Numbered from the stretch's first letter, positions 1-49,518 are shown. The stretch is DNA of 49,518 nucleotides from a virus (IMGVR_UViG_3300033064_001904:1-49518); one strand, 5' to 3'. Numbers and translations: made by a program. Notes: a model not told the origin generated them from the letters alone.

Positions 1-107
1 CGCTGCTTGGGACGCTGCTTGGGACGCTGCTTGGGACGCTACTCGGGACGCTGCTCGGGACGCTGCTCTGAATGCTGCTCGGGACGCTGCTCTGGATGCT
101 GAGGAAA
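1..107 (+). repeat. 12-bp coding tandem repeat, left-end part
   Basis: Tandem units of about 12 bp (consensus TGGGACGCTGCT, alternating with CGGGACGCTGCT) run from base 1 to about 107, with degenerate units at the right edge. The same array ends the window at about 49345-49492. Sequence variation between units is mostly in the first codon (TGG, CGG, CTG) and the second codon (GAC, AAT, GAT). Confidence 0.9.
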
Positions 108-699: not shown

Positions 700-839
700 A
701 TCAAGAACAAGCACAGGAAATTCTCACAGAACTCCTTGAGAGAATCTGTCCGAAGGGCGAAAAAACCTTAACACGGGGAGAAGCCCTTGTAGCCTTAGCA
801 CTTTATCTTATTGAACTTTTCCCCCCTTCACATGACTGA
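696..839 (+). CDS. small hypothetical protein
   Basis: 47 aa, start ATGA-coupled to the stop of the preceding gene. Sequence starts MNQEQAQEILTELLERIC and is predicted helical, with a hydrophobic C-terminal half (ALVALALYLIELF). Its end overlaps the next start by 8 nt, and its Pro-Pro codons are the C tract that precedes that next start. Function unknown. Confidence 0.6.
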   Translation: MNQEQAQEILTELLERICPKGEKTLTRGEALVALALYLIELFPPSHD

Positions 840-1128
840 CCAACAAACCATAGAGAGATTAGCGGCTTTTATGGGGTGGGAGAATGCCCCATCAGATGAG
901 TGGAGAATGTCCGATGGAATGGAGTTTATGTGCATGAAGAATGAATGGAACCCCCTTAAAGATTGGAACCACACCCACCAAGTACTTGATAAGGTGATGG
1001 AGGATCCCAAATTACATACTAAGTTTGCAATTCAATTCCACACAATAAATAGCTGTATGAACTACATGAAAGCCTCCCAAGTGACACTAATGGACACTCT
1101 CGTTTCTGTTCTCCCCCCCTCCACATGA
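832..1128 (+). CDS. phage ABA sandwich domain protein (paralogue 1)
   Basis: 98 aa. ATG 832 is preceded at 5 nt by a six-C tract (821-826). The core IERLAAFMGW, then WNPLKDWNHTHQVLDKVMED, matches the widespread phage family I know as the phage ABA sandwich domain. A paralogue lies at 8614-8997 with the same MGW, NWNPLKDWNH and ALVSVLPP motifs. Role unknown; such proteins are typical of early/accessory blocks. It overlaps the next gene by ATGA. Confidence 0.7.
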   Translation: MTDQQTIERLAAFMGWENAPSDEWRMSDGMEFMCMKNEWNPLKDWNHTHQVLDKVMEDPKLHTKFAIQFHTINSCMNYMKASQVTLMDTLVSVLPPST

Positions 1129-1730
1129 AGAGTGATCTAACACCAAAGGCGATTGAAGAAATGATTGAGAAGGTGAAGGTTCTTCAAAAAAAACTTCCAC
1201 ATCTCACGGGTGTCCACGAAATATTCTCGGCTTTTCTCCAACTCTCAGAAGAGAACAAAAATCTTAGAGAGATAATAGATCAAGCTCCTGATAACTGGTG
1301 GAAAGGTTATGACAAACTGTCTTGTGAGAACAAGGAACTCAAAGAGGAGAACAAGCTCCTAAAAGCAACTGCAAACTACAAAATGATCTCTGAGCAACAG
1401 AAGAGAATAGAGAAATTGAATAACGACATCCAATCACTCCGTCCTCAAAATAGACGATTACAGGATGCTGCTGTTGCAACTGCAAAAGAGAACAAGGAAC
1501 TCAGATTGTTGTGTAAACAGAGCCATGAAGAGAAACCTCTTACCGCATCAGAAATAAGTCAGAGTCAGAAATTTTCTCGTTCTATATTGAAAGAACTAAA
1601 AATCATGGAAAAAGAGCGTAACGAAGCAAGAGAAGCTTTACTCTCACTGGAACCGCAGGAATGTAAATGCGGAGCAATGAAAGGACAATTGCATAGTAAT
1701 GGTTGTGTATTTATGGCACTAACCCCCTAA
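1125..1730 (+). CDS. coiled-coil protein with C-terminal zinc knuckle
   Basis: 201 aa, ATGA overlap with the preceding gene, start preceded by a seven-C tract. Most of the chain is predicted coiled coil (EENKNLREI, KELKEENKLLKA, EQQKRIEKLNNDI). Near the end comes KERNEAREALLSLEPQ and then a CKC-x6-8-H-x3-C knuckle (CKCGAMKGQLHSNGC). The same KRIEELE, ERNEARE and knuckle modules recur in other combinations at 1736, 2785, 3717, 4142 and 5636. Probably a structural or adaptor protein that may bind nucleic acid; function unknown. Confidence 0.75.
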   Translation: MKSDLTPKAIEEMIEKVKVLQKKLPHLTGVHEIFSAFLQLSEENKNLREIIDQAPDNWWKGYDKLSCENKELKEENKLLKATANYKMISEQQKRIEKLNNDIQSLRPQNRRLQDAAVATAKENKELRLLCKQSHEEKPLTASEISQSQKFSRSILKELKIMEKERNEAREALLSLEPQECKCGAMKGQLHSNGCVFMALTP

Positions 1731-1735
1731 CCCCT

Positions 1736-2029
1736 ATGAGAACAGAAGATACAGTACAGGCTATGGAGAAGGTGAAAGACATACTCTATTTCAATAAGTT
1801 CCTTAACGATAATAAAGCAAAACATATAGGGGAGAGAGAAGATTTGTACAGAAGGATTGCTGATCGCGCTCCTGATGTAGCCCAACTCTGCGACCATCAA
1901 CAAAAGAGAATTGAGGAGTTGGAGGAGGCTATGCGGAACTATCAAAAAACTAATCCTAGCAACAGATGGATTGATGAAGCCCTCACCGACAAACCACCTT
2001 CCCCCCCTCCCCCCACTAACAATGAGTGA
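1736..2029 (+). CDS. tagged coiled-coil early protein
   Basis: 97 aa. ATG 1736 follows the upstream stop by 5 nt within CCCCCTAACCCCTATG. It begins with the shared tag MRTEDTVQAMEK, then an acidic/basic helix, RAPDVAQLCDHQQKRIEELE (coiled coil), and a proline-rich tail PPSPPPPTNNE. The tail is encoded by the C-rich tract that precedes the next gene, overlapped by 8 nt. Member of the mosaic paralogous family of this region; function unknown. Confidence 0.7.
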   Translation: MRTEDTVQAMEKVKDILYFNKFLNDNKAKHIGEREDLYRRIADRAPDVAQLCDHQQKRIEELEEAMRNYQKTNPSNRWIDEALTDKPPSPPPPTNNE

Positions 2030-2561
2030 AGAAACAATAAAAGTTTGTCACAGATGCGGAACACCGCTTGTATGGACGTTCGCCTTCATGGGTGCTGAAT
2101 ACTACTGCATTGGTTGCGGAGGAAATTATGGGATGCTCGGTGCAGGTAGAAATGAAGAAGAGACACCCGAATTAAAAAAGCAATTTCTCTCCGTGAAAAT
2201 AAAATGGGGACAAGTAGCAAAACATTTGCAATCGGGTGGAGGATGGAAAACAGACTGTGAGAAATGCAAGCCTATGGTTAGAGGGAATGAACACTATACC
2301 CATCTAACGGATGAGGAGATCAAAAAACATGAATGGGCTATGAAGAGACTAGAAGCAATGTTACTTCCTGAATATCAAAATACCCCCTCCCCCCCACTAA
2401 CAATGAGTGAAACAATGACACGCTATGGATACTGGCTTACGGCAAATGAAGATGATCTCCGTGAACAATGGGATTCCATGAAGGAGGTTGAACAACACGA
2501 GATGGGTGAAACTTTTGAAAACTATTGCCAGCTACAATATACCGATGGATATGGTCTATAA
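2022..2561 (+). CDS. zinc-ribbon protein fused in frame to a duplicated small module
   Basis: 179 aa open frame. The N-terminal part (about residues 1-127) has CHRCGTPLVW and YYCIGCGG (a four-Cys zinc ribbon) and CEKCKPMV. At residue ~124 the frame runs through the same C-rich start cassette seen before other genes (TPSPPLTMSE). It then enters a second module (MSETMTRYGYW to TDGYGL), which exists as a separate 52-aa gene at 3305-3463. So this is either a genuine fusion or two proteins, with an internal start at 2403. ATG 2022 is preceded by C7 and C6 tracts. Function unknown. Confidence 0.65.
   Translation: MSEETIKVCHRCGTPLVWTFAFMGAEYYCIGCGGNYGMLGAGRNEEETPELKKQFLSVKIKWGQVAKHLQSGGGWKTDCEKCKPMVRGNEHYTHLTDEEIKKHEWAMKRLEAMLLPEYQNTPSPPLTMSETMTRYGYWLTANEDDLREQWDSMKEVEQHEMGETFENYCQLQYTDGYGL
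2403..2561 (+). repeat. direct duplication, copy 1 (159 bp)
   Basis: This 159-bp segment is almost identical to 3305-3463, with only a few substitutions near the start and end. Both encode MTRY(G/E)YWLTANEDDLREQ and onward to TDGYGL. In this copy the preceding gene has no stop before it, so the module is read through. Recent duplication of a whole small gene together with part of its start region. Confidence 0.9.
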
Positions 2562-2624
2562 TCCCCCTCCCCCCACTTACGAAGATGAGTCTAATTAGAC
2601 CAATACTGTACCTATTTTATACCT

Positions 2625-2795
2625 ATGAAAAAACAAGACACAACATCGGCTATGGAGAAGTATTTGCTAACAAGGCTCAAGACAAAGCCTAAGACTGGAT
2701 ATGTCTATATTACACCACACGAAACTTGTATTTGTCATTGTCCTTGGCTTGGGAAGTGTAAATGTTTCTTTTCCCGAATGTACTATGACCACTAA
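2625..2795 (+). CDS. tagged Cys-rich microprotein
   Basis: 56 aa, too short for many gene finders. It begins MKKQDTTSAMEKYLL, a variant of the shared early tag (EDTAQAMEK), which supports this frame and start. The C-terminal half has CICHCPW and GKCKCFFS, a possible zinc site. A C-rich start cassette at 2563-2587 leads instead to an ATG at 2585 in another frame (35 codons). That frame may be a remnant or an alternative product. Ends overlapping the next gene start. Confidence 0.5.
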   Translation: MKKQDTTSAMEKYLLTRLKTKPKTGYVYITPHETCICHCPWLGKCKCFFSRMYYDH

Positions 2796-3312
2796 ACCAA
2801 CACCACAGGAGACTATGGAGCATGGACAATTAAAAAATGGTACCCAACCGAGTCAGGCTTCCCACATGACCGAGGCAGGTAAAGGGGAGGGTAAAACCTC
2901 CCCCAAAATGCCAAAAGAAGTTATCTTGTGCAATGATTCTGTTTGTGATGGGGCATATTTGGTTAAAGTCTGCGAATCCCAACAGAAGAGGATAGAGGAG
3001 TTGGAGGCACACCAAACAGAAATTGATTTTATGCTGAAAGATGTTGGTGGAACGCAAAAAGTTCTGGCTATGCGTAAAGCATTTCCCGATGAGCACAGGA
3101 CACGTACCGAAATGGTTATACGTCACGAAGTAGAATTGAAAAGGATGGAAAAGCAATGCAACGAAGCCAGAGAGGCATGTAGGAAGCTGAGAGGATTATT
3201 GTTAGATATGAAAAGCCACCCATGCAATTTCTGTAATAATAAAGGAGAATCCCATTCCACACTCTGCCCTATTAGTAAAGCCCTAGCCTCTACCCCTAAT
3301 TTCAATGACTGA
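2785..3312 (+). CDS. tagged coiled-coil protein with C-terminal zinc knuckle
   Basis: 175 aa. I prefer ATG 2785 over upstream in-frame starts because the protein then begins MTTKPTPQETMEHG, matching the tag family, and TTTTCCCG lies just upstream. Modules in order: tag; charged linker; CESQQKRIEELE coiled coil (about residues 70-82); MEKQCNEAREACRKLRGLL helix; zinc knuckle CNFCNNKGESHSTLC (about 150-164). Related to the proteins at 1125 and 3717 but with the modules in another order. Function unknown. Confidence 0.7.
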   Translation: MTTKPTPQETMEHGQLKNGTQPSQASHMTEAGKGEGKTSPKMPKEVILCNDSVCDGAYLVKVCESQQKRIEELEAHQTEIDFMLKDVGGTQKVLAMRKAFPDEHRTRTEMVIRHEVELKRMEKQCNEAREACRKLRGLLLDMKSHPCNFCNNKGESHSTLCPISKALASTPNFND

Positions 3313-3463
3313 AACAATGACACGCTATGAATACTGGCTTACGGCAAATGAAGATGATCTCCGTGAACAATGGGATTCCATGAAGGAGGTTGAACAACAC
3401 GAGATGGGTGAAACTTTTGAAAACTATTGCCAGCTACAATATACTGATGGATATGGACTTTAA
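3305..3463 (+). CDS. duplicated small acidic protein
   Basis: 52 aa, MTETMTRYEYWLTANEDDLR and onward. The start overlaps the previous stop by 8 nt. It is the stand-alone copy of the module fused at the end of the 2022-2561 frame. Acidic and aromatic, probably helical. Function unknown; near-identity of the copies supports that it is translated. Confidence 0.65.
   Translation: MTETMTRYEYWLTANEDDLREQWDSMKEVEQHEMGETFENYCQLQYTDGYGL
3305..3463 (+). repeat. direct duplication, copy 2 (159 bp)
   Basis: Second copy of the segment at 2403-2561; see that entry. The stretch between the copies (2562-3304) holds two other small genes, so the duplication is dispersed, not tandem. Confidence 0.9.
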
Positions 3464-3492
3464 TCCCCCTAACCCCCCTCCCACTCCTCTAT

Positions 3493-3702
3493 ATGACTCC
3501 ACTACGATGCAAATTAGGCTTTCACAAATGGAGAATGCGAGCAGGATCTAGCCATAGGGCGATATTTATTTGTATGAAAGAAGGCTGTGATGCTGCTGAA
3601 TCGTTTGATGGATTGGAACATAGGAAATTTTCCCAACAGGACATAAAATTGCCATTCAATAAAGATGCACAATTTATAGATTTTTCCTCACAATGGCTTT
3701 AA
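3493..3702 (+). CDS. DUF1660-like small zinc protein
   Basis: 69 aa, MTPLRCKLGFHKWRM then FICMKEGCDAAESF. The C-x3-G-x-H-x-W motif followed by a C-x4-C pair is what I associate with the small phage family DUF1660 (zinc binding). It starts after a long C-rich stretch (3466-3488). Role unknown in the family. Confidence 0.6.
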   Translation: MTPLRCKLGFHKWRMRAGSSHRAIFICMKEGCDAAESFDGLEHRKFSQQDIKLPFNKDAQFIDFSSQWL

Positions 3703-3716
3703 TCCCAACCTCCTAA

Positions 3717-4145
3717 ATGGTAAATGATAAGAAAGAAACAATGGCAGAGAAGTTGATACCGAAGGGGACAAAATCTGCTTGGCATAGATTAAAAGGTTCA
3801 TCATATTGCCAGTTCTGCCATGCAAATTCACAAGGATTTCATTCAGAAAAATGCCCTGTTAGTATTGTTCTTAATGAATATAAGGAATTAGAAGAAGCGG
3901 CAGAGGAGAGCGATGCACAAAATGGAATAATTGATACCTTAAACAAAGTAATTGAATTTACAGAGCAAGAACGCAACGAAGCTAGAATAGAAGTCAAACG
4001 ATACCGAGAAGCATTGGAGTATTATGCAAACAAAGATAATTGGAAGACTGAAAATGTAGACACAGAAGATGATAGTTTCAGTTTTACTTGGATTGAGGGA
4101 AATCATACATACGCAGAAGCAGCACTTTTACCCCTAACCTTATGA
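3717..4145 (+). CDS. mosaic protein: N-terminal zinc knuckle, coiled coil, C-terminal phage-conserved tail
   Basis: 142 aa. Starts MVNDKKETMAEKL (tag-like). It then has a knuckle CQFCHANSQGFHSEKC at about residues 31-46, so the module that is C-terminal in the 1125 and 2785 genes is here N-terminal. A coiled coil with QERNEARIEVKRYREALEYY (about 82-101) follows, then an acidic end (NKDNWKTENV). The YREALEYYA..NW ending is common in phage small proteins. Function unknown. Stop overlaps the next start (TTATGA). Confidence 0.7.
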   Translation: MVNDKKETMAEKLIPKGTKSAWHRLKGSSYCQFCHANSQGFHSEKCPVSIVLNEYKELEEAAEESDAQNGIIDTLNKVIEFTEQERNEARIEVKRYREALEYYANKDNWKTENVDTEDDSFSFTWIEGNHTYAEAALLPLTL

Positions 4146-4456
4146 CAACAGAAGATACAGCACAGGCTATGGAGAAGGCACGGAAGTTTAGGAAAAGGCA
4201 CGATATTAAGATGTCTTTCTGGGGCACAGAAACTCCAAGGGCAAGATGGATGGTAGAAATAGTGGAGATACTAGACTCCTACGAATCCCTTTATGCTGAG
4301 AACAAGAGATACCGAGAGGCTTTGGAGACTATTAAATTTGGAGCTGGCGAACAGACCGAGGATGAGGCAGATTATGAAGAATTTGAAACATATTACAATG
4401 CACTTGCTAGATGCTACTCAATATCACAACAAGCCCTTCATCCCCCAACCCAATGA
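4142..4456 (+). CDS. tagged coiled-coil early protein
   Basis: 104 aa. Begins with the archetypal tag MTTEDTAQAMEK, then a basic stretch, SYESLYAENKRYREALETI (coiled coil), an acidic segment, and the ending SISQQALHPPTQ. The same ENKRYREALE and QQAL modules appear in the 5636 gene. ATG is preceded by TACCCCTAACCTT. Function unknown. Confidence 0.7.
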   Translation: MTTEDTAQAMEKARKFRKRHDIKMSFWGTETPRARWMVEIVEILDSYESLYAENKRYREALETIKFGAGEQTEDEADYEEFETYYNALARCYSISQQALHPPTQ

Positions 4457-4695
4457 GTGATACACCTACACCACAGGCAGAGGAGAAGTGTGAATGCTAT
4501 TACGGTGTTGCTCCGCATACACACGACTTGAGTAGAACAGGCTCCTTTATTGGGAGCACTGTCCTGAAACCAAAAATAGAATATCCTCCAAACTTCCATG
4601 AAGACCCCGAATGTGAAGGATGTGGAACATATATATGCACACATTGTTTGCAAATGTCAGATGGTTCTACCCCTCCCCCCACTAACAATGAGTGA
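4453..4695 (+). CDS. tagged zinc-binding early protein
   Basis: 80 aa. ATG 4453 follows ATCCCCCAACCCA. Tag variant MSDTPTPQAEEK, then CECYYGVAPHTHD and a second cluster CEGCGTYICTHC, which together suggest one or two zinc sites. Ends in the same TPPPTNNE tail as the 1736 gene, because its end overlaps another copy of the C-rich start cassette. Function unknown. Confidence 0.65.
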   Translation: MSDTPTPQAEEKCECYYGVAPHTHDLSRTGSFIGSTVLKPKIEYPPNFHEDPECEGCGTYICTHCLQMSDGSTPPPTNNE

Positions 4696-4879
4696 ACCCA
4701 TGAATAAGAAAGTACCAACGGCAGAGGAGACTATGGAGAATAATGAGATTAAACAAATTTATTTGGACACAAAAAGTGGATTTGATTTCTTCCTCTCGCC
4801 AAGTGAGCAAATGGATTTTTGGGCTACCTTTGGGCAGAATGTTTATTCTAAATTTCTTTCCGATCCCCCCTCCCCCTAA
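4688..4879 (+). CDS. tagged small early protein
   Basis: 63 aa, MSEPMNKKVPTAEETMENNE then a hydrophobic/aromatic half (FDFFLSPSEQMDFWATFGQ). Start preceded by CCCC-T-CCCCCC-ACTAACA-ATG (cassette copy 4). Ends DPPSP because of the next C tract. Function unknown. Confidence 0.6.
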   Translation: MSEPMNKKVPTAEETMENNEIKQIYLDTKSGFDFFLSPSEQMDFWATFGQNVYSKFLSDPPSP

Positions 4880-4884
4880 CCTCT

Positions 4885-5220
4885 ATGACAACAGAAGATA
4901 CAGCACAGGCTGAGAATAAAATTATTCGTAATGGAAAAGTCGCAGTCGCTATATCTCCTGGCTTTGGCTCAGGATGGACAACATGGAATGATGAAATATC
5001 CCCATTCGAACCGAAGATTATTAGTATGATAGAAGAGGGAAGGAAATCAGAAATCACACAAGAATGGTGCAAGCAACATTTAGGAATAAGCGATGTTTAT
5101 TGTAGTGGCGTGGACGACATTAAAGTTGTTTGGGTTCCTATAGGAATATCCTTTTCTATAAATGAATATGATGGAAGTGAATCTCTTCATCAATCTGATG
5201 AATTGAAGTTCACCGCATAA
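4885..5220 (+). CDS. conserved phage protein with GFGSGWTTWN motif
   Basis: 111 aa. Tag MTTEDTAQAENK is joined to KVAVAISPGFGSGWTTWND, ISMIEEGRKSEIT, VYCSGVDDIKVVWVPIG and INEYDGSESL. From memory, the part after the tag matches a conserved ~95-residue phage hypothetical family that normally starts directly at the KVAV strand. If so, the tag was added upstream of an existing domain. Function of the family is unknown to me. Start preceded by C6 and C5 tracts. Confidence 0.75.
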   Translation: MTTEDTAQAENKIIRNGKVAVAISPGFGSGWTTWNDEISPFEPKIISMIEEGRKSEITQEWCKQHLGISDVYCSGVDDIKVVWVPIGISFSINEYDGSESLHQSDELKFTA

Positions 5221-5247
5221 CCCCCTAACCCTCTACCTATTACCTGT

Positions 5248-5394
5248 ATGAGAACCAACCCTACCGCCAAGGCTTCGGCAGATAGAAACCATCTTGAGCT
5301 AATGTACGAATTACAGGAGTTCTTCCACCATCCTTTGTATGGCGATGACGAAGAAGAGGATATTGAAAAGATGCTAAAGATTCTTAACCCCTAA
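5248..5394 (+). CDS. small acidic helical protein
   Basis: 48 aa, MRTNPTAKASADRNHLELMY then an acidic DDEEEDIEKMLKIL end. The N-terminus is a loose version of the early tag. It ends LNP followed by TAA inside the C-rich start region of the next gene. Start preceded by CCCCCTAACCC. Function unknown. Confidence 0.55.
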   Translation: MRTNPTAKASADRNHLELMYELQEFFHHPLYGDDEEEDIEKMLKILNP

Positions 5395-5400
5395 CCCCCT

Positions 5401-5646
5401 ATGACCAAAGAAGATACAGCACAGGCTATGGAGCCAAAATATGGAGAGATTAAAATTCTCACATACTATGGCAAAGATTGGAAAGAGATATGGAGATGCA
5501 ACAACAAGGGGGAAAAAATAGAATTATTGTTTGAAACTGATGATAGAGAGAAGGATTATTCAGATGTAAAAGAAATGGACATTGTTGAAGAGATGCCTTG
5601 GTCAGAGTTTTGTAACAAATACCGCAATTCTAAATATGCAATCTAA
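5401..5646 (+). CDS. tagged small early protein
   Basis: 81 aa, tag MTKEDTAQAMEPK then a beta-rich domain (GEIKILTYYGKDWKEIWRC, KIELLFETDD) and an acidic helix. Start ATG 5401 lies in CCCCTAACCCCCTATG. The domain after the tag is not recognised. Confidence 0.65.
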   Translation: MTKEDTAQAMEPKYGEIKILTYYGKDWKEIWRCNNKGEKIELLFETDDREKDYSDVKEMDIVEEMPWSEFCNKYRNSKYAI

Positions 5647-5980
5647 CCCCACCCCACAGGCTAAAGATACTAACCCCAAAGATAGTTCACAAGAAGATAC
5701 AACATTGGCTACGGAGAAGGTGAGAGAAATTGCAAAAGAGCTAGTCAAATATGTAGACGAACATCCTGACCATACTTTTATTCTATGGAGAGAAAGAATA
5801 AGGTCTGTAGCCCAACTCTGCGAATCCCTCTACGAAGAGAACAAGAGATACCGAGAGGCTTTGGAGAAGTACAGTTCTCACGAAGAACATTGTTCGTTTG
5901 GATCTCCTAATAGAAAAACAGGTGGAACCCGTGAATGTGATTGTTTCCTAAAGATAGCCCAACAAGCCCTAACCCCCTAA
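5636..5980 (+). CDS. tagged coiled-coil early protein with Cys end
   Basis: 114 aa, ATG 5636 overlaps the previous gene. It contains two tag-like segments in series (SNPTPQAKDT and QEDTTLATEKVREI), then SVAQLCESLYEENKRYREAL (coiled coil), then a Cys/His-containing segment EEHCSFGS..ECDCFLK, ending IAQQALTP. It combines modules seen separately in the 1736, 4142 and 4453 genes, good evidence of recombination among these paralogues. Function unknown. Confidence 0.65.
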   Translation: MQSNPTPQAKDTNPKDSSQEDTTLATEKVREIAKELVKYVDEHPDHTFILWRERIRSVAQLCESLYEENKRYREALEKYSSHEEHCSFGSPNRKTGGTRECDCFLKIAQQALTP

Positions 5981-8093: not shown

Positions 8094-8614
8094 CCCTCAA
8101 CCAAATCCTGGAAACAGCAGGCGAATCTGGAATAAACTTTGAAGTTACCTCTATAGGTTCCGAACGAGACTTCCCTAAAAAGGATGGAGGTACATATAAA
8201 TCCTGTTCAGTAGAATTAAAAATCCCCTCTACAGGACAGGTAGAAGATGCTCGGTTATTTAAGAGTCAGATAGAACAATGGGGAATGAAAGTAGGATGCA
8301 CGTTAAATGGAAAAGCTGGAAAGTACGCAGGTTCTAAATACGCAGTATGGACTCCTGTAAGAACAGGAGAAGAAGTTTTAAATGAAACACCACAGAATAA
8401 CTACCAACAAGTTAAAGCAGAACGGGCAGTCTCTGAAGCGATGACCGAAGAGAGACGAAAGGATCAGGTCAAGCAGGCTATGATCTCTCTCGCCGGTCTA
8501 ATGCAAGCACATATAAGCGCAGGGATGGATAATAAAGGCGCTTTGGAGGCTGCCCAAGAAGCACGTAAAATGCTGCTGGAAGCGGCTGTAGAAGAAGTTA
8601 CCCCCTCTATGTAA
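8090..8614 (+). CDS. hypothetical protein, possible OB-fold N-terminal domain
   Basis: 174 aa. MTLNQILETAGESGINFEV, a beta-rich N-terminal domain (about residues 15-95: SCSVELKIP, KVGCTLNGKAG, KYAVWTPV), then a helical, charged C-terminal half (ERRKDQVKQAMISLAGLMQ). Domain order resembles small phage single-strand-binding-like proteins, but no signature lets me be sure. ATG 8090 overlaps the previous stop and follows CACCCCATATT. Confidence 0.6.
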   Translation: MTLNQILETAGESGINFEVTSIGSERDFPKKDGGTYKSCSVELKIPSTGQVEDARLFKSQIEQWGMKVGCTLNGKAGKYAGSKYAVWTPVRTGEEVLNETPQNNYQQVKAERAVSEAMTEERRKDQVKQAMISLAGLMQAHISAGMDNKGALEAAQEARKMLLEAAVEEVTPSM

Positions 8615-8997
8615 TGACTGATACTGAAATCATTGAACGGCTTGCGGAGTTTATGGGGTGGAAAGCAGAAGAGTGTGAACAACACATGCTCAAACAAGGC
8701 TTGTATGAACACTTAGGATCAAAACTATGTTGGTCTACAGGAAAGATGATAAAAACAAGTGGCACTCGCCCTGATTGGAAAGAGCAAGTTGATTATAATT
8801 GGAACCCTCTCAAAGATTGGAACCATTGGAGACAGGTGGAGGAGAAGTTGATGGAGGATTGGAGGCTGATGAGAAAGTTCTTTGAAAGTTACCAGGATGG
8901 CTATGCTCAATTTAGAAATGACAGTATTGAAAAATACCTACAAGCCGACCTCCCTACACACTGTAAGGCTCTTGTTTCTGTTCTCCCCCCTAAATAA
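8614..8997 (+). CDS. phage ABA sandwich domain protein (paralogue 2)
   Basis: 127 aa. IERLAEFMGWKAEECEQ, NWNPLKDWNHWRQVEEKLME, and the ending ALVSVLPPK match the 832 gene. An insertion of about 25 residues (GLYEHLGSKLCW) lies between the blocks. Start preceded by TTACCCCCTCTATGTA. Role unknown. Confidence 0.7.
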   Translation: MTDTEIIERLAEFMGWKAEECEQHMLKQGLYEHLGSKLCWSTGKMIKTSGTRPDWKEQVDYNWNPLKDWNHWRQVEEKLMEDWRLMRKFFESYQDGYAQFRNDSIEKYLQADLPTHCKALVSVLPPK

Positions 8998-25518: not shown

Positions 25519-25716
25519 CATCCTAACTAGAGGATTAACCATCATCCTGCATTCTGGTAAAAATTCCTTGTATTTCCTTAATGTTTTATATACTGGATTT
25601 GTAGTCTCATAGTGTAAGAATACACGTATTTCCTCTGCTCTCGTTATACCAAGACTGTAGACAAGGAGTATCGAAATTTCATGTGGCTTTGCCTCTGGGG
25701 GTATATTGGTTGGCAT
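25513..25716 (-). CDS. small helical protein, paralogue of the 38173 gene
   Basis: 67 aa. IPPEAKPHEISILLVYSLG, ITRAEEIRVFLHYET, then a basic helix. Clearly related to 38173-38355 (IPEDTTPRETAVLIVYYVLG, DDIRKLLHY). The predicted three-helix pattern with an R-rich end suggests DNA or RNA binding. Its 3' end abuts HNH gene 2. Confidence 0.6.
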   Translation of the reverse strand: MPTNIPPEAKPHEISILLVYSLGITRAEEIRVFLHYETTNPVYKTLRKYKEFLPECRMMVNPLVRMS

Positions 25717-25765
25717 TCATTAGAGGAAGGGTATAGTGGGGATATGGGAATTATCTTTGGATTCA

Positions 25766-27643
25766 TCATTGGGATGGCGATAAGTCATTTTGTGACTGAG
25801 GAAAAGTTGGGATTCTAACCCCTGTCTGCAAAGCACCTCTTCCTGTGGTTTGTATCCCCCTAGATGCATGTGCCTCGAAACCTTCTGTCAAGAGCCTTCT
25901 ACCAAATTCTGTTGAGAATATTCTTGAGAATATAACATCTTGTGCAGCTATGCCAACAGCTATCTCTGGATTGCCCGAACCTATTGCAGTAAAGAACGCC
26001 GCAGTTTTTGCTAAGAATGCTGTTTGAGAACCTCTTGCTGCACCCTGTCCTCTGTCTACGGCTTTTGCCAGTTGTGCTACTTCACGAATACCCTCTGCTG
26101 TTTTTTCATCAAATAAATCATCAATCACACTGCCAAATTTATTTATAGAATTAGAGAATTTGGAACCACTAACCCTTCCATCGGTCTTCGCCTTGTCCAC
26201 TAACTTTCTTAGGAATGCAGCTTGAACATTTTTTACTCTTTGCTCTCCACCTTTTGTAGAACCTATAAGCTCGACCAATCTTCTGGCTTGGCTAGTTTTG
26301 CCTGGCTTTAACAAAGTATCAACAATCAATTCTGGACTATCAGACAATCTAGCAACGTTTCTTCCAACTTCACTTTCTAAGAGTTGTATACCACTTCCAT
26401 AGAACTCATCAGCAGCACCCAAAGCCTTTCCTATCTCTGGTTGAACCAATTTAATATGGCTATCTAAATCTCTCGATAGAGTAGCTGCCACCTTTTTGAG
26501 TGCAGCAGTATCACCAGTACTAACTAGAGTATTCCCAAATGGAACCATTTTATTGATTTCATCAAGAGTATCGCTTAATACTTTAATTGATAGCTTCTTA
26601 TCAAGATTTTTCCTTAAGACCTCTAGTCTACCAACATCTACAAATTCACCAAGTAATTCCCTAGCTCCCGCCTTGGTGGACAAGATCTCATCTAAGGCAA
26701 CCTTGGTTTTATCAACATTTATAAATTCTTTACCTAAGGTTTCTGCCCTGCCTGCAACTATTTTGTCAGCTTCTTCATATAGCTTCCTTTTAGTACCTGT
26801 CCATGATTTTTTGTAAGATTCTGCACCTTCTATAATTGCTTTTCCTGCAAGTCCAAGATCTTCTGTGCCACCTATCTTGCCAATAACATCATCAGAAACC
26901 TTTACAATATCATCGTTAGCTTGGGTTATTATCTTTTGCACTCTGCCACCAGTAAATCCCTTGGCAGCAAATGCTTCCCCCTGTCTTACGACTTCGGATT
27001 CTGATAATGCAGATATTGGTAGTTTAATACCAAATTTATCTGCTATTCTGGCAATTTGTGCATTAAATTGTTGTTTGAATGGTGACAATGCCTTGCCGAC
27101 TGCTTTAGTAGCTACTTTCCCACCGAATTCAGCAGTAGCACCAAATAATGCTTCTTTGCCTATTTCTCCAAATTCAAACCCCTCTTGCTCTCCACCAAAT
27201 CTTTTTTCAACACCAATGGTTTGACCTATAGCCTGTCGTCCTGTTTCTAATATTCCAGCTCCTGCTCCAGCCCCAAGTGGCGCAGTAACTATTCCAGGAG
27301 CTGCAATTATCCCCCCTCCGATTGCACCAAATATAGGCAATGCTGGGCCGACAACATCGGCTATATCTCCTGGCAAATCAGCTATATCAAATCCCTTACT
27401 TGTCTCGAATCTGCCTTCTCTCATATCTCTTGAACCAAAACCTCGTTGCAATCTCTCTGGAACACTTTTAAGACTTTCAAAAAGTCGTTGACCAAACGTA
27501 GTCCTTGTTGGTTTTGGCTCAAATATATCAATATCGAAACCAAGTTCATGCCCATTACCTTTTAACGTCTCTGAGAGTATCTCAGGAGTTGTATTAGCAT
27601 CCTGTAACATTTTCCGAAAATCTGATTCAGGGACTATAGGCAT
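25766..27643 (-). CDS. internal virion / DNA-ejection-type protein
   Basis: 625 aa. Charged N-terminus, then a long Gly/Ala-rich membrane-active stretch (PALPIFGAIGGGIIAAPGIV, about residues 93-130), then long helices. This composition and position after the tail genes is typical of podovirus ejection proteins (P22 gp16/gp20- or T7 core-type), which leave the head and form a conduit through the envelope. No enzymatic motif seen. Confidence 0.6.
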   Translation of the reverse strand: MPIVPESDFRKMLQDANTTPEILSETLKGNGHELGFDIDIFEPKPTRTTFGQRLFESLKSVPERLQRGFGSRDMREGRFETSKGFDIADLPGDIADVVGPALPIFGAIGGGIIAAPGIVTAPLGAGAGAGILETGRQAIGQTIGVEKRFGGEQEGFEFGEIGKEALFGATAEFGGKVATKAVGKALSPFKQQFNAQIARIADKFGIKLPISALSESEVVRQGEAFAAKGFTGGRVQKIITQANDDIVKVSDDVIGKIGGTEDLGLAGKAIIEGAESYKKSWTGTKRKLYEEADKIVAGRAETLGKEFINVDKTKVALDEILSTKAGARELLGEFVDVGRLEVLRKNLDKKLSIKVLSDTLDEINKMVPFGNTLVSTGDTAALKKVAATLSRDLDSHIKLVQPEIGKALGAADEFYGSGIQLLESEVGRNVARLSDSPELIVDTLLKPGKTSQARRLVELIGSTKGGEQRVKNVQAAFLRKLVDKAKTDGRVSGSKFSNSINKFGSVIDDLFDEKTAEGIREVAQLAKAVDRGQGAARGSQTAFLAKTAAFFTAIGSGNPEIAVGIAAQDVIFSRIFSTEFGRRLLTEGFEAHASRGIQTTGRGALQTGVRIPTFPQSQNDLSPSQ

Positions 27644-38355: not shown

Positions 38356-38572
38356 TAAATTCAGAGAGAATAGATATAAGCTCTTCGATGCGTGTGGCGT
38401 ATGTAATGTCTTTCTCTAATACCATAGACTGAGCGTGTTCTGCTATGCGATTGTTAAGTCTCTTTATTAGTGACTTGAACTTGGCATCAGCTACAAGCTC
38501 ATCAATGTCAGATTTATCCTCGTCTGTTTCCTCTATGTAAGCCGGTAGTTTTTCCTCAGAGTATTTTTCCAT
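38345..38572 (-). CDS. small helical protein
   Basis: 75 aa, ATG 38572 chosen for overlap with the GroES stop. Acidic N-terminus, helices (FKSLIKRLNNRIAEHAQSM, ATRIEELISILSEF). Not recognised. Confidence 0.5.
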   Translation of the reverse strand: MEKYSEEKLPAYIEETDEDKSDIDELVADAKFKSLIKRLNNRIAEHAQSMVLEKDITYATRIEELISILSEFNVE

Positions 38573-38861
38573 GAATAGAAGAGATGTGAATGGATTTAAG
38601 GCGTTCGATACGCTTGCCGTCATCGTATAAATTAACTTCTTCTGCTGCGAACTTCGTGAATTGTACTTTATCACCAACCTTTAGCCTTTCAAAATTCACT
38701 TGTTGCTCCTTGTCGGTGACACATTCTGGCATAGCCCATATAACTCCTGATCCTGTTATGGGTAGTCCTTCCTGACCGACTATAAATCCTGACTCTGTTT
38801 CATGCTCTTCTTCCTTCTCCTCTATGAGGTAAATAAAATCATTAAGGGGCAACACTTTCAT
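38556..38861 (-). CDS. GroES-like co-chaperonin
   Basis: 101 aa, close to the usual ~97. Order of Cpn10 features: PLNDFIYLIEEKEEEHETES, mobile-loop region with a hydrophobic tripeptide (SGFIVGQEGLPI), G-S-GVIWAMPE, LKVGDKVQFTKFAAEEVNLY, and an ending with ERLKSIHISSI. It would cap the phage GroEL (43801) or the host GroEL. Lies between portal and capsid genes, where capsid folding is the likely job. Start preceded by TTCCCCCTCCAGTAG. Confidence 0.8.
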   Translation of the reverse strand: MKVLPLNDFIYLIEEKEEEHETESGFIVGQEGLPITGSGVIWAMPECVTDKEQQVNFERLKVGDKVQFTKFAAEEVNLYDDGKRIERLKSIHISSIHGKIL

Positions 38862-43524: not shown

Positions 43525-43804
43525 GTTTGGGCTTGGTAAAAGGATAATGCCAATCATATAATTTAAGATCATGTTTCTTTCTCCACTTTCTATACTTCTC
43601 TTTCATTCGTGTCCTTTTGATTGAGAGCCTTGGCTTTACTTGAGAGTGGACGTGTCTCATCCCTGCTCTCCAATCTGCTCTGCTTCCATTTGATTTAGGA
43701 GTTGGGTTCTTTGAGGTATGTTTAATCTCTTTACGATATGCTGCAAGTGCTCTGCGCCATGCAGGTCTGTTTGGGTAAAAGCCTCTTTTGGGATATTGGC
43801 TCAT
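43517..43804 (-). CDS. small basic protein
   Basis: 95 aa, Arg/Lys/Trp-rich (WRRALAAYRKEIKHTSKN, RTRMKEKYRKWRKKHDLKLY). ATGA-coupled to GroEL. Probably nucleic-acid binding; not recognised. Confidence 0.5.
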   Translation of the reverse strand: MSQYPKRGFYPNRPAWRRALAAYRKEIKHTSKNPTPKSNGSRADWRAGMRHVHSQVKPRLSIKRTRMKEKYRKWRKKHDLKLYDWHYPFTKPKHG

Positions 43805-45414
43805 TTCCCTTTAAAGGTAAAAGGCTCTGATCTGTCCTCATCTATATCAGCGACAACACATTCTAGAGTTAAGAACATACTGGCTACTGATGCAGCGTTT
43901 TGTAGGGCTACACGATTTACTTTCTTTGGGTCGATTACGTTAGCTACTACTAAATCTTCTACTCTGTCAGTAGTTCCGTTATACCCTTGGTATCTTTCAT
44001 CTTTGAGAACTTCTTTGAGAGTTCTTTTGGGTGCTCCGCAGTTCTGAATAATTTGTTGTGAGGGAGAGATGAGAGCTTTCTTCACTATATCAATACCGGT
44101 TTGTTCGTCCTTGTCTTCTGCTTTTAGGGTAGAGTTTTGAATTGCCCTTAAGTAAGCAACTCCTGAGCCGGGGACTATTCCTTCTTCCCATGCTGACTTG
44201 GTCGCCCCGATAGCGTCCTCTACTCTGTGGTGTCTTTCGGTACGCTCAATTTCGGTAGCTGCGCCGACCTTTATAACTCCAACTCCTCCGCTAAGCCTTG
44301 CGATTCTCTTGTTGATGTAATCAATATCAAATGCCTTATCCTTAGGTAAATCTTTAACGTCTGCTTTCATCTTGTCTATTCTTTTTTGGACTTCAGTTTG
44401 TTCTCCACCACCGTTTACGATGATTGTACTGTCCTTACTTACTATAACTCTACGGGCGTAGCCTAAGTGTTCTGGTTTTAGATCCTCTATGTTCTTGCCA
44501 TGTTCTTTTATAAACGCTGTCGCGGAAGTGTAAGCTGCTATGTCCTCTAGGACTGCCTGACGGTACAAATCGTACAGTGGTGCTCTTATTACGGCTGCTT
44601 CAAGTTTAGATTGTGCTACGTTCGATATGAAGGAGGCTAACGCTCCTCCGTCCATTGTTTCACAAATAACTACTATCTTTCTTACTCCCTTCTTTGACAG
44701 TTCTTCTAGGAGTTTAAGTACCTGTTCAAATCTCATTATCTTGTTATCGGTTACTATGATCGGTACGTCTTCTAATATACATGTGGCATTCTTGTAATCG
44801 TTAATACATATCGGGAAAAGGTCTCCATATCCTGAATCAAATAACATCCCGTCAGTGTACTCCTTAGTTATGCCTACTTCTGACTGTGGTTCTACGGTTA
44901 CTATTCCGTCCTCTCCAACCTCTGTCATTACTTCAGAGACTATTTTTCCTATCTCTTCGTCTTGAGAGGATATCGTTGCAATGGCTTTAAGCTGAGAGTT
45001 GTCTACCGATATGGAGAATTCTTCCAGAAAATTACAGACTTCTTCTACTGCTTTGTCTATGCCACGTTTCATTAAAATCGCATTAGCACCTTTTCTCATA
45101 TACTTCATACCCTGTTCCATTATTGCGTAAGCTAAGATTGTAGCAGTTGTCGTACCATCTCCTGTTGATTCGTTAGTCTTATTGGCTGCTTCTCGGACAA
45201 GCTGAGCACCGGAGTCTTCAATTGTATCTTCCAGGTGGATTTCGTTTGCTGTGGTAACACCGTCCTTTGTTACTAGATTTCCTTCTCTCTTTCGGATTAA
45301 GACGTTTCTTCCGTTAGAACCCATAGTTACACGAACTGCCTTGGCTAGTTTTTCTGCTCCAGCTAGTATTTTTTCACGGGCATCAGTGGAGTAGAATATC
45401 TTTTTAGGAATCAT
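43801..45414 (-). CDS. GroEL-like chaperonin
   Basis: 537 aa, full-length group I chaperonin. ATG 45414 chosen because it lies just after a C5 tract (ATTCCCCCACTTAAT). Key residues are present: TKDGV (Asp equivalent to D52), GDGTTTAT at 85-92 (D87 equivalent), RRVIVSKDSTIIVNG, RIARLSGGVGVIKVGAATEI, and RVEDAIGATK (D398 equivalent). It lacks the C-terminal GGM repeat of cellular GroEL. Divergent from bacterial GroEL by eye. Probably folds capsid or fibre proteins with the GroES-like protein. Confidence 0.9.
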   Translation of the reverse strand: MIPKKIFYSTDAREKILAGAEKLAKAVRVTMGSNGRNVLIRKREGNLVTKDGVTTANEIHLEDTIEDSGAQLVREAANKTNESTGDGTTTATILAYAIMEQGMKYMRKGANAILMKRGIDKAVEEVCNFLEEFSISVDNSQLKAIATISSQDEEIGKIVSEVMTEVGEDGIVTVEPQSEVGITKEYTDGMLFDSGYGDLFPICINDYKNATCILEDVPIIVTDNKIMRFEQVLKLLEELSKKGVRKIVVICETMDGGALASFISNVAQSKLEAAVIRAPLYDLYRQAVLEDIAAYTSATAFIKEHGKNIEDLKPEHLGYARRVIVSKDSTIIVNGGGEQTEVQKRIDKMKADVKDLPKDKAFDIDYINKRIARLSGGVGVIKVGAATEIERTERHHRVEDAIGATKSAWEEGIVPGSGVAYLRAIQNSTLKAEDKDEQTGIDIVKKALISPSQQIIQNCGAPKRTLKEVLKDERYQGYNGTTDRVEDLVVANVIDPKKVNRVALQNAASVASMFLTLECVVADIDEDRSEPFTFKGK

Positions 45415-45415
45415 A

Positions 45416-45949
45416 TTAAGTGGGGGAATTGTAGCCTTCATCCTTCATTATCTGAGTAAAGGACTTATCTCCGATTAAAATATCGCCCAAGAATCTTCCG
45501 TATTTCCCTTGTTTATCCTTGTACGTCTTAAGTGTAACAATCTTATCAATAGGTAGCAACTCTTTTGCTCGCTCCATGGCTTGTTTTCCTTCCTCTACGT
45601 CCTTGTTTGTGTAGCCTTTTATCTTACGGATTTCTTTGGTGTTTAGGTCTTTAATTCTAATTATCTGAGTTATGTAGATGTTGAATCCAACTGAAATCTC
45701 CAGCTCCGCAGTATCGCCATCTAAGATTCTTATTACTTTAGCTTTATAGGTGTACAAACAATCCTTCTCATCCCATAACTTATCCAGTCCTTTGCTTAGG
45801 TCTTCTACAGGGATTTTGGTTTTGTCTACATATTTGTCTACATTTTCTGGACGGTATTTTGCTAACTCTTCATCCCATTGCTTTTTCCACATACGTTCTT
45901 CTATAAAGTATTGTCTAATCATTTGGATGTATCCCCAGGGTGATTTCAT
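45416..45949 (-). CDS. thermonuclease (SNase)-like protein
   Basis: 177 aa. Helical N-terminus (~60 residues) then an SNase OB fold: YKAKVIRILDGDTAELEISV, IIRIKDLNTKEIR, IVTLKTYKDKQGKYGRFLGD, SFTQIMKDEGYN. DGD and the GRFLGD Arg are in place. The usual R-x-R-G-I-x-T-P-E segment reads RIKDLNTKEIR, so the catalytic Arg/Glu pair needs checking. May degrade host DNA or take part in virion DNA processing. Adjacent to GroEL. Confidence 0.75.
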   Translation of the reverse strand: MKSPWGYIQMIRQYFIEERMWKKQWDEELAKYRPENVDKYVDKTKIPVEDLSKGLDKLWDEKDCLYTYKAKVIRILDGDTAELEISVGFNIYITQIIRIKDLNTKEIRKIKGYTNKDVEEGKQAMERAKELLPIDKIVTLKTYKDKQGKYGRFLGDILIGDKSFTQIMKDEGYNSPT

Positions 45950-49128: not shown

Positions 49129-49518
49129 ATGCTCACTTTAAAAGATGACAACGGCAAACCATTACCTAAGAAGATACAGAAACGTGTGAATAATTTTATA
49201 GATCATTTAAAAGATGTTCCTTGGTTTAATCCTTCATCTAATCTAAAAAAAGAGGATGTTGAGAAACAAGTTAATTTCACTCTTAAATGCTTTGGTGTGA
49301 AAGCGGGGATTGAATATAGACAATTGAAGACAGGAGAAGATTGGGACGCTGCTCGGGACGCTGCTCTGAATGCTGCTTGGGGCGCTGCTCGGGGCGCTGC
49401 TTGGGACGCTGCTCGGGACGCTGCTTGGGACGCTGCTCGGGACGCTGCTCGGGACGCTGCTTGGGCCGCTGCTCGGGACGCTGCTTGGGCCGCGCGAGGT
49501 CTTCTTGTGGAAGACCTC
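49129..49518 (+). CDS. N-terminal part of the WDAA/RDAA-repeat protein (continues at window start)
   Basis: 130 codons, open to the window edge. Unique N-terminus MLTLKDDNGKPLPKKIQKRV, WFNPSSNLKKEDVEKQVNFT, LKCFGVKAGIEYRQLKTGED, then at least 12 units of W/R/L-D/G/N/A-A-A. The last 27 bases (from GCGCGAGG) depart from the repeat and end in a palindrome. The frame at 49518 does not join directly in phase to the frame used at base 2, so units or bases are missing at the junction. Function unknown. Confidence 0.75.
   Translation, partial: MLTLKDDNGKPLPKKIQKRVNNFIDHLKDVPWFNPSSNLKKEDVEKQVNFTLKCFGVKAGIEYRQLKTGEDWDAARDAALNAAWGAARGAAWDAARDAAWDAARDAARDAAWAAARDAAWAARGLLVEDL
49345..49492 (+). repeat. 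12-bp coding tandem repeat, right-end part
   Basis: Array of about 12 units alternating TGGGACGCTGCT and CGGGACGCTGCT with a few GGC, GCC and AAT variants. Shares longer sub-blocks (for example CGGGACGCTGCTCTGAATGC) with the left-end array at 1-107. Copy number in the real genome cannot be read from this assembly. Confidence 0.9.
49496..49518. repeat. 9-bp inverted repeat at the extreme window end
   Basis: GAGGTCTTC-TTGTG-GAAGACCTC. It sits exactly at the end of the sequence, does not match the repeat array, and is not mirrored at the left end. Snap-back assembly or amplification artefact is the simplest explanation. Confidence 0.7.

Follow-up and report, generated by a model that had tools for sequence, protein, structure and literature searches.

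Why should about ten otherwise different proteins of one viral operon begin with the same few residues? The question is raised by IMGVR_UViG_3300033064_001904:1-49518, a 49.5-kb record of an uncultured virus, here called the window, meaning the whole stretch of DNA that was analysed. A dense operon of small genes occupies ~0.7-9 kb of its + strand, and the structural genes run the opposite way. We call the operon genes early from their position and strand alone. An earlier reading of the sequence, the original prediction below, had noticed the common N-terminal tag and proposed either a start-region cassette spread by recombination or a sorting, loading or degradation signal. Our analysis favours the cassette. 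Probably a translation-start cassette was copied by recombination, its copies being homogenised in each genome; the shared peptide would be the product of its coding part, and largely a by-product. The leader included in the repeat, its sharp and variable boundaries, the endpoints of a duplication, a start word private to each phage and an out-of-frame copy in a relative all point this way.

The repeated start region

All gene starts listed in the original prediction are genuine ATG open reading frames (ORFs; genes are named by start position). The common peptide of ~10 genes at ~1.1-6 kb exists in two related wordings, EDTAQAMEK and (P)TPQAEEK. The core wording, EDT(A/V)QAMEK, is found in 1736, 4142 and 5401; 4885 matches it only through ...AQAE, and 2625 carries the looser QDTTSAMEK. 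The second wording, (P)T(P/A)(Q/K)(A/E), is present in 2785, 4453, 5248 and 5636, and at residue 10 in 4688. Gene 5636 holds both in tandem, with PTPQAK at its start and QEDTTLATEK inside (DNA copy 5692-5720). Ten of the listed starts carry these wordings; gene 3717, also listed, is only a weak look-alike, and 1125 (LTPKAIEEMIEK) fits the pattern at least equally well. The tagged N-termini, on many small proteins, are short and hydrophilic, with R, T, K, S or Q as residue 2.

N-terminal 16-mers of 22 proteins were compared by their best 8-mer BLOSUM score. At a threshold of 20 we obtained 25 pairs, whereas 200 trials of each control never exceeded 8 (interior segments) or 9 (shuffled N-termini), which confirms the common tag. 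The DNA is also near-identical at several starts, as had been claimed: GAAGATACAGCACAGGCT is exact in 4142, 4885 and 5401 and has 1 mismatch in 1736.

Alignment of the starts together with their upstream DNA revealed that the unit begins before the ATG. Counted from the A of the ATG, mean pairwise DNA identity among the four core genes (1736, 4142, 4885 and 5401) is 0.75-1.0 at most positions from ~-13/-12 to +31, and is at background (~0.2-0.27) by +36. The repeated unit starts at ~-13, up to -20, and includes the non-coding leader. It ends at different codons (+26, +32 and +36). A self-comparison of the + strand between 0.6 and 9.2 kb gave 23 significant direct matches. Fourteen join one start to another (strongest E 2e-13), and 3 more link a start with the tag copy inside gene 5636. 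The others are 1 whole-gene duplication and 5 matches elsewhere, namely coiled-coil blocks and the 832/8614 pair. The duplicated gene (Table 1) has its endpoints at the start codon and the leader, and supports cassette copying.

Bodies and leaders

The original prediction held that different domains follow the tag. This stands for 4885, 4453 and 5401, none of which shares the coiled-coil pieces common to tagged genes 1736, 2785, 4142 and 5636. The latter four share these blocks as well as tags and are thus partial paralogues. The tag of 4885 does sit, as proposed, in front of a free-standing phage domain. Its Vibrio phage homologues lack the tag and start MGKVIKDGMVAV..., and the 4885 protein starts MTTEDTAQAEN-KIIRNGKVAVA.... 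Judged from this comparison, the 4885 tag is an addition replacing the first residues of the domain. Gene 4453 is probably a second case of an added tag, its domain probably occurring also in Certrevirus phages without it; a weak tblastn match in Cronobacter phage CR8 (E 0.02) has a different start. Except for phrog_5457 in 4453, what the early proteins matched in Pfam and PHROGs was at chance level. Matches of 4885 to gp41 constructs in phmmer were judged spurious, and an alignment-free AlphaFold model of this protein was too poor for use (pLDDT, the predicted local distance difference test score, 46).

In the leader, C content peaks at ~-13 to -8, the position expected of a Shine-Dalgarno site. 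AGGA, GGAG or GAGG was found at -18..-4 in 0 of the 49 window starts checked. CCCC lies within 25 nucleotides (nt) upstream of 52% of the window's early starts and 48% of those of a related phage, G004, against 4.5-6.4% of all ATGs; for the window this is a ~10-fold enrichment of early starts over all ATGs (52% vs 4.5%). C-rich leaders (CCCC at ~-13 to -8) with almost no Shine-Dalgarno sites were seen in all four related phages (window, L010, L011 and G004; L021-L023), and at both early and late starts of the window. The C-rich leader is possibly a non-Shine-Dalgarno initiation element of the host.

A second leader, type B, is repeated without any tag, and the proteins downstream of its copies at 2003-2030 and 4670-4696 begin with MSE. 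Because these leaders overlap the end of the preceding gene, the 1736 and 4453 proteins have a common C-terminal tail, PPPTNNE. A further copy is translated within ORF 2022-2561, where the in-frame leader (NTPSPPLTMSETMTRYG) fuses the duplicated small gene 2403 onto a zinc-type protein. From its layout, this ORF is a natural fusion via the cassette. Since leader repeats yield both the tail and the in-frame read-through, shared peptides here can come from shared DNA alone.

Start words of related phages

Portal and capsid queries of IMG/VR returned the same set of three contigs only, L010, L011 and G004. A terminase query returned no relative, and neither did two scans of a genome-contig collection. 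The L010 contig does not include that phage's early region. G004 (46 kb) has a capsid protein 69% and a portal 62% identical to those of the window. In its comparable region it shows C-rich leaders and its own shared start word, MTHPEKPSA, which occurs in no other IMG/VR contig. The tagged starts of G004 are MTHPEKPSAYEE, MTHPEKTTADKK, MIHSEKPSAKSEE and MTHPEPPITPSAEEI, and DNA repeats at its starts span -12..+27 (E 1e-8). Its N-terminal pairs are in clear excess at the stricter score of 24 only (7 vs at most 3 in controls), the looser score giving 11 vs at most 10. The tag of window gene 4688 matches that of G004 gene 23500 (88% over 26 nt, E 0.007), so the tags of the two phages probably share descent. 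A tblastn search against phages found nothing for the G004 proteins 23500 and 24155 or the window proteins 5636 and 5401.

L011 contains an exact repeat of 22 nt, one copy of which spans the start of gene 4543 (MTTNNKTAEGT...). The second copy lies behind a C-rich leader and forms a 10-codon mini-ORF, MTTNNKTLND-stop, out of frame with the overlapped gene. Unless this copy is a decayed tag, its layout indicates that the cassette moved here as DNA without tagging the next protein.

In IMG/VR, two tag patterns had one match each, both judged to be chance: the L008 match falls within a long protein interpreted as a tape measure, and L019 is unrelated. A leader-plus-tag pattern had 0 matches.

Start cassette or peptide signal

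The cassette would comprise a C-rich leader, the ATG and 8-12 codons. Recombination between short repeats would have placed copies of it ahead of different small genes in one operon, and these copies would be homogenised within each phage genome (concerted evolution). The probable origin is a family of small coiled-coil proteins that have a short disordered start plus an N-terminal helix; from there the start may have passed onto the unrelated bodies of 4885, 4453 and 5401. It would be kept mainly as a working start region where Shine-Dalgarno sites are not used by the phage, the repeated starts acting as gene-swap junctions. As the leader DNA is copied with the start codon and first codons, the proteins begin with the same peptide, which would be tolerated and not selected for its sequence.

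The ratio of non-synonymous to synonymous substitutions counted between copies (pN/pS) is 0.88 for the tag in 12 window copies, 1.42 in the 4 core copies and 2.42 in G004. In the bodies it is 0.15 (duplicated gene 2403/3305) and 0.24 (shared coiled-coil block). Constraint on the tag was not detectable, which is no proof of its absence. Several points weigh against a peptide that is a by-product of its DNA. The tag counts are small, and the copies are related, non-independent and picked by similarity. Shifted-frame controls (0.75 and 1.11) bracket the true-frame 12-copy value, which leaves the test little power. Both wordings retain the T and A of T-x-x-A via synonymous changes, the T being invariant partly because it anchored the alignment, and the G004 tags look similar (TPKPAAEEIMEK); this may reflect weak constraint on the amino acids, or common descent. 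Tag and leader are separable, in 2625 (leader not C-rich) and 5692 (no leader). RNA folding at tagged starts (-4.6 kcal/mol) is no weaker than at untagged ones (-4.1 kcal/mol). An extra benefit for initiation is thus not shown, and a role of the tag in lowering start-region structure was not supported. Save for a possible T/A preference, the tag nevertheless comes close to the lack of constraint that the original prediction named as counting against its proposal.

A tag acting at the protein level has a precedent in T4-family internal proteins, which have only an N-terminal leader in common, a demonstrated capsid-packaging signal (PMC12373910, PMC3012670). In the window, ~10 N-terminal residues are likewise shared by otherwise unrelated small phage proteins, and a docking or packaging leader could load small effectors into the head or onto one partner. 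Flanking repeats, as Repoila et al. are said to have proposed in 1994, may aid shuffling of the T4 internal-protein genes. Unlike the T4 leader, the window tag shows no detectable conservation of its residues (pN/pS ~1 or higher, on small counts), and the G004 word differs despite the similarity of capsid protein and portal. A scan of ten late proteins recognised no prohead protease, although most of these proteins match nothing known. The leader DNA forms a start region within the operon, and L011 holds an out-of-frame copy of its own start cassette. We therefore regard such a packaging leader as quite unlikely. The same holds for a modular loading tag with a fast-changing recognition partner, where each phage's private word, held uniform among its accessory proteins, would be an address label for delivering diverse effectors. 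A degradation or stability tag, N-degron-like and giving early proteins a short half-life, would suit the many small proteins with short hydrophilic N-termini. With residues under no detectable constraint and a variable residue 2, it is very improbable. No positive evidence thus emerged for the sorting, loading or degradation signals first envisaged, the tag having as many non-synonymous as synonymous changes for its sites.

Plain paralogy would derive all these genes from one ancestral small coiled-coil protein by many duplications, with only the N-terminus, the start of a helix, still alike. The original prediction had named whole-protein similarity as evidence against a tag. Similarity beyond the tag, in the form of coiled-coil pieces, is found in part of the set (1736, 2785, 4142 and 5636), and G004 proteins 25530 and 23500 combine a tag with an ENKR(M/L)R segment. 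It does not extend to 5401, to 4885 or, probably, to 4453; the bodies of the last two fall in other phage families that lack the tag. Identity also drops abruptly at +26 to +36 and takes in non-coding DNA. Paralogy is ruled out for 4885 and is an unlikely account of the whole set. Lambdoid Ead/Ea22-like early proteins are likewise small mosaics with a shared N-terminus and variable bodies, but none of ten early proteins of the window matched PF13935 (Ead/Ea22) in Pfam at E up to 1.

For the start cassette, the nearest precedent in position and spread, not in sequence or extent, is given by the start-associated (SAS/ESAS) repeats of cluster K mycobacteriophages. These lie in the non-structural genome half and occupy the ribosome-binding position, a few bases ahead of many genes that belong to different families (PMC3203893). 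The SAS, a 13-bp AGGAG-containing site (consensus GGGATAGGAGCCC) with a Shine-Dalgarno core, has a proposed role in translation initiation (PMC3203893). The window repeat is also just upstream of starts, in different gene families of a non-structural region. In contrast, SAS are wholly upstream of the start codon and alike across the cluster, whereas the window repeat extends 9-12 codons into the gene, with a word private to each phage, and its C-rich leaders do not match the Shine-Dalgarno core. Near-identical N-termini on unrelated C-termini are also known from phage protein domain shuffling (PMC10684548), but there whole domains pass between genomes, whereas here ~10 codons and a leader are repeated within one operon.

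A start cassette of this kind would offer a concrete route for bringing new accessory proteins under an existing start, the region being copied before a foreign domain and leaving a peptide scar. It also cautions against reading every N-terminal "tag" common to phage proteins as a signal. Three related phages with three words make a test case for gene conversion versus selection on a targeting peptide. For this phage lineage, the leaders point to an initiation element that is rich in C and not of the Shine-Dalgarno type.

Table 1 Start cassette copies, leaders and associated features of the window
Feature	Position	Strand	Basis
Start cassette copy: leader, ATG1736 and 12 codons MRTEDTVQAMEK	1723..1772	+	Family D1; 92% over 49 nt to 4142 copy
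Start cassette copy, reference: leader, ATG4142 and MTTEDTAQAMEK	4129..4178	+	Self-comparison and alignment
Start cassette copy: leader, ATG4885 and 9 codons MTTEDTAQA	4872..4911	+	97% over 39 nt to 4142 copy; homology stops at +26
Start cassette copy: leader, ATG5401 and MTKEDTAQAME	5384..5433	+	88% over 50 nt to 4142 copy; homology stops at +32
Diverged tag copy MKKQDTTSAMEK, leader not C-rich	2622..2660	+	79-81% to 1736 and 4142 copies
Internal tag copy (QEDTTLATEKVREI) within gene 5636, without leader	5691..5730	+	82-86% to 1736, 2625 and 4142 copies
Second wording MTTKPTPQETME	2785..2823	+	86% over 28 nt to 4688 gene start; N-terminal protein test
Second wording with leader, MSDTPTPQAEEK	4440..4489	+	62% to reference copy; N-terminal protein test
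Second wording MSEPMNKKVPTAEETMEN	4688..4741	+	4715-4740 88% identical to tag of unrelated G004 gene, E 0.007
Second wording MRTNPTAKASA	5248..5280	+	ORF translation; N-terminal protein test
Second wording MQSNPTPQA	5636..5662	+	Alignment; N-terminal protein test
Duplicated cassette gene (MSETMTRYGYWL...), start codon to next leader	2401..2574	+	96% to 3303-3478
Duplicated cassette gene, second copy (MTETMTRYEYWL...)	3303..3478	+	Self-comparison with 2401-2574
Body of gene 4885, GFGSGW domain	4918..5217	+	Homologous to free-standing Vibrio phage proteins without tag
Body of gene 4453, phrog_5457-like domain	4489..4692	+	PHROGs E 1e-7; weak tblastn and translation
Coiled-coil block	4279..4328	+	90% over 50 nt to 5818-5867
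Coiled-coil block	5818..5867	+	90% over 50 nt to 4279-4328
Coiled-coil block QQKRIEELE	1884..1925	+	81% over 42 nt to 2966-3007
Leader type B and ATGAGTGA; other frame, C-terminal tail PPPTNNE of gene 1736	2003..2030	+	27/27 nt identical to 4670-4696
Leader type B, translated in frame inside ORF 2022-2561	2383..2411	+	97% to 2003-2030
Leader type B; also C-terminal tail PPPTNNE of gene 4453	4670..4696	+	27/27 nt identical to 2003-2030

Some further features of these genomes were observed. A protein family with the motif WNPLKDWNHW (83% DNA identity over 60 nt) has two copies in the window (832-1128 and 8614-8997) and one in G004 (25613-26026). The window encodes GroES-like and GroEL-like proteins at 38559-38861 and 43804-45441, and GroEL-like ORFs are present in L010 and G004 too. 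The terminase large subunits of L010 (6566-9055) and L011 (1697-4261) carry an intein-like insert at Walker A (GVGK...HNS) that is missing from those of the window and G004. Finally, the same 12-nt repeat array is found at both ends of the window (1-101 and 49299-49507), which suggests a circular or terminally redundant genome cut within one gene.

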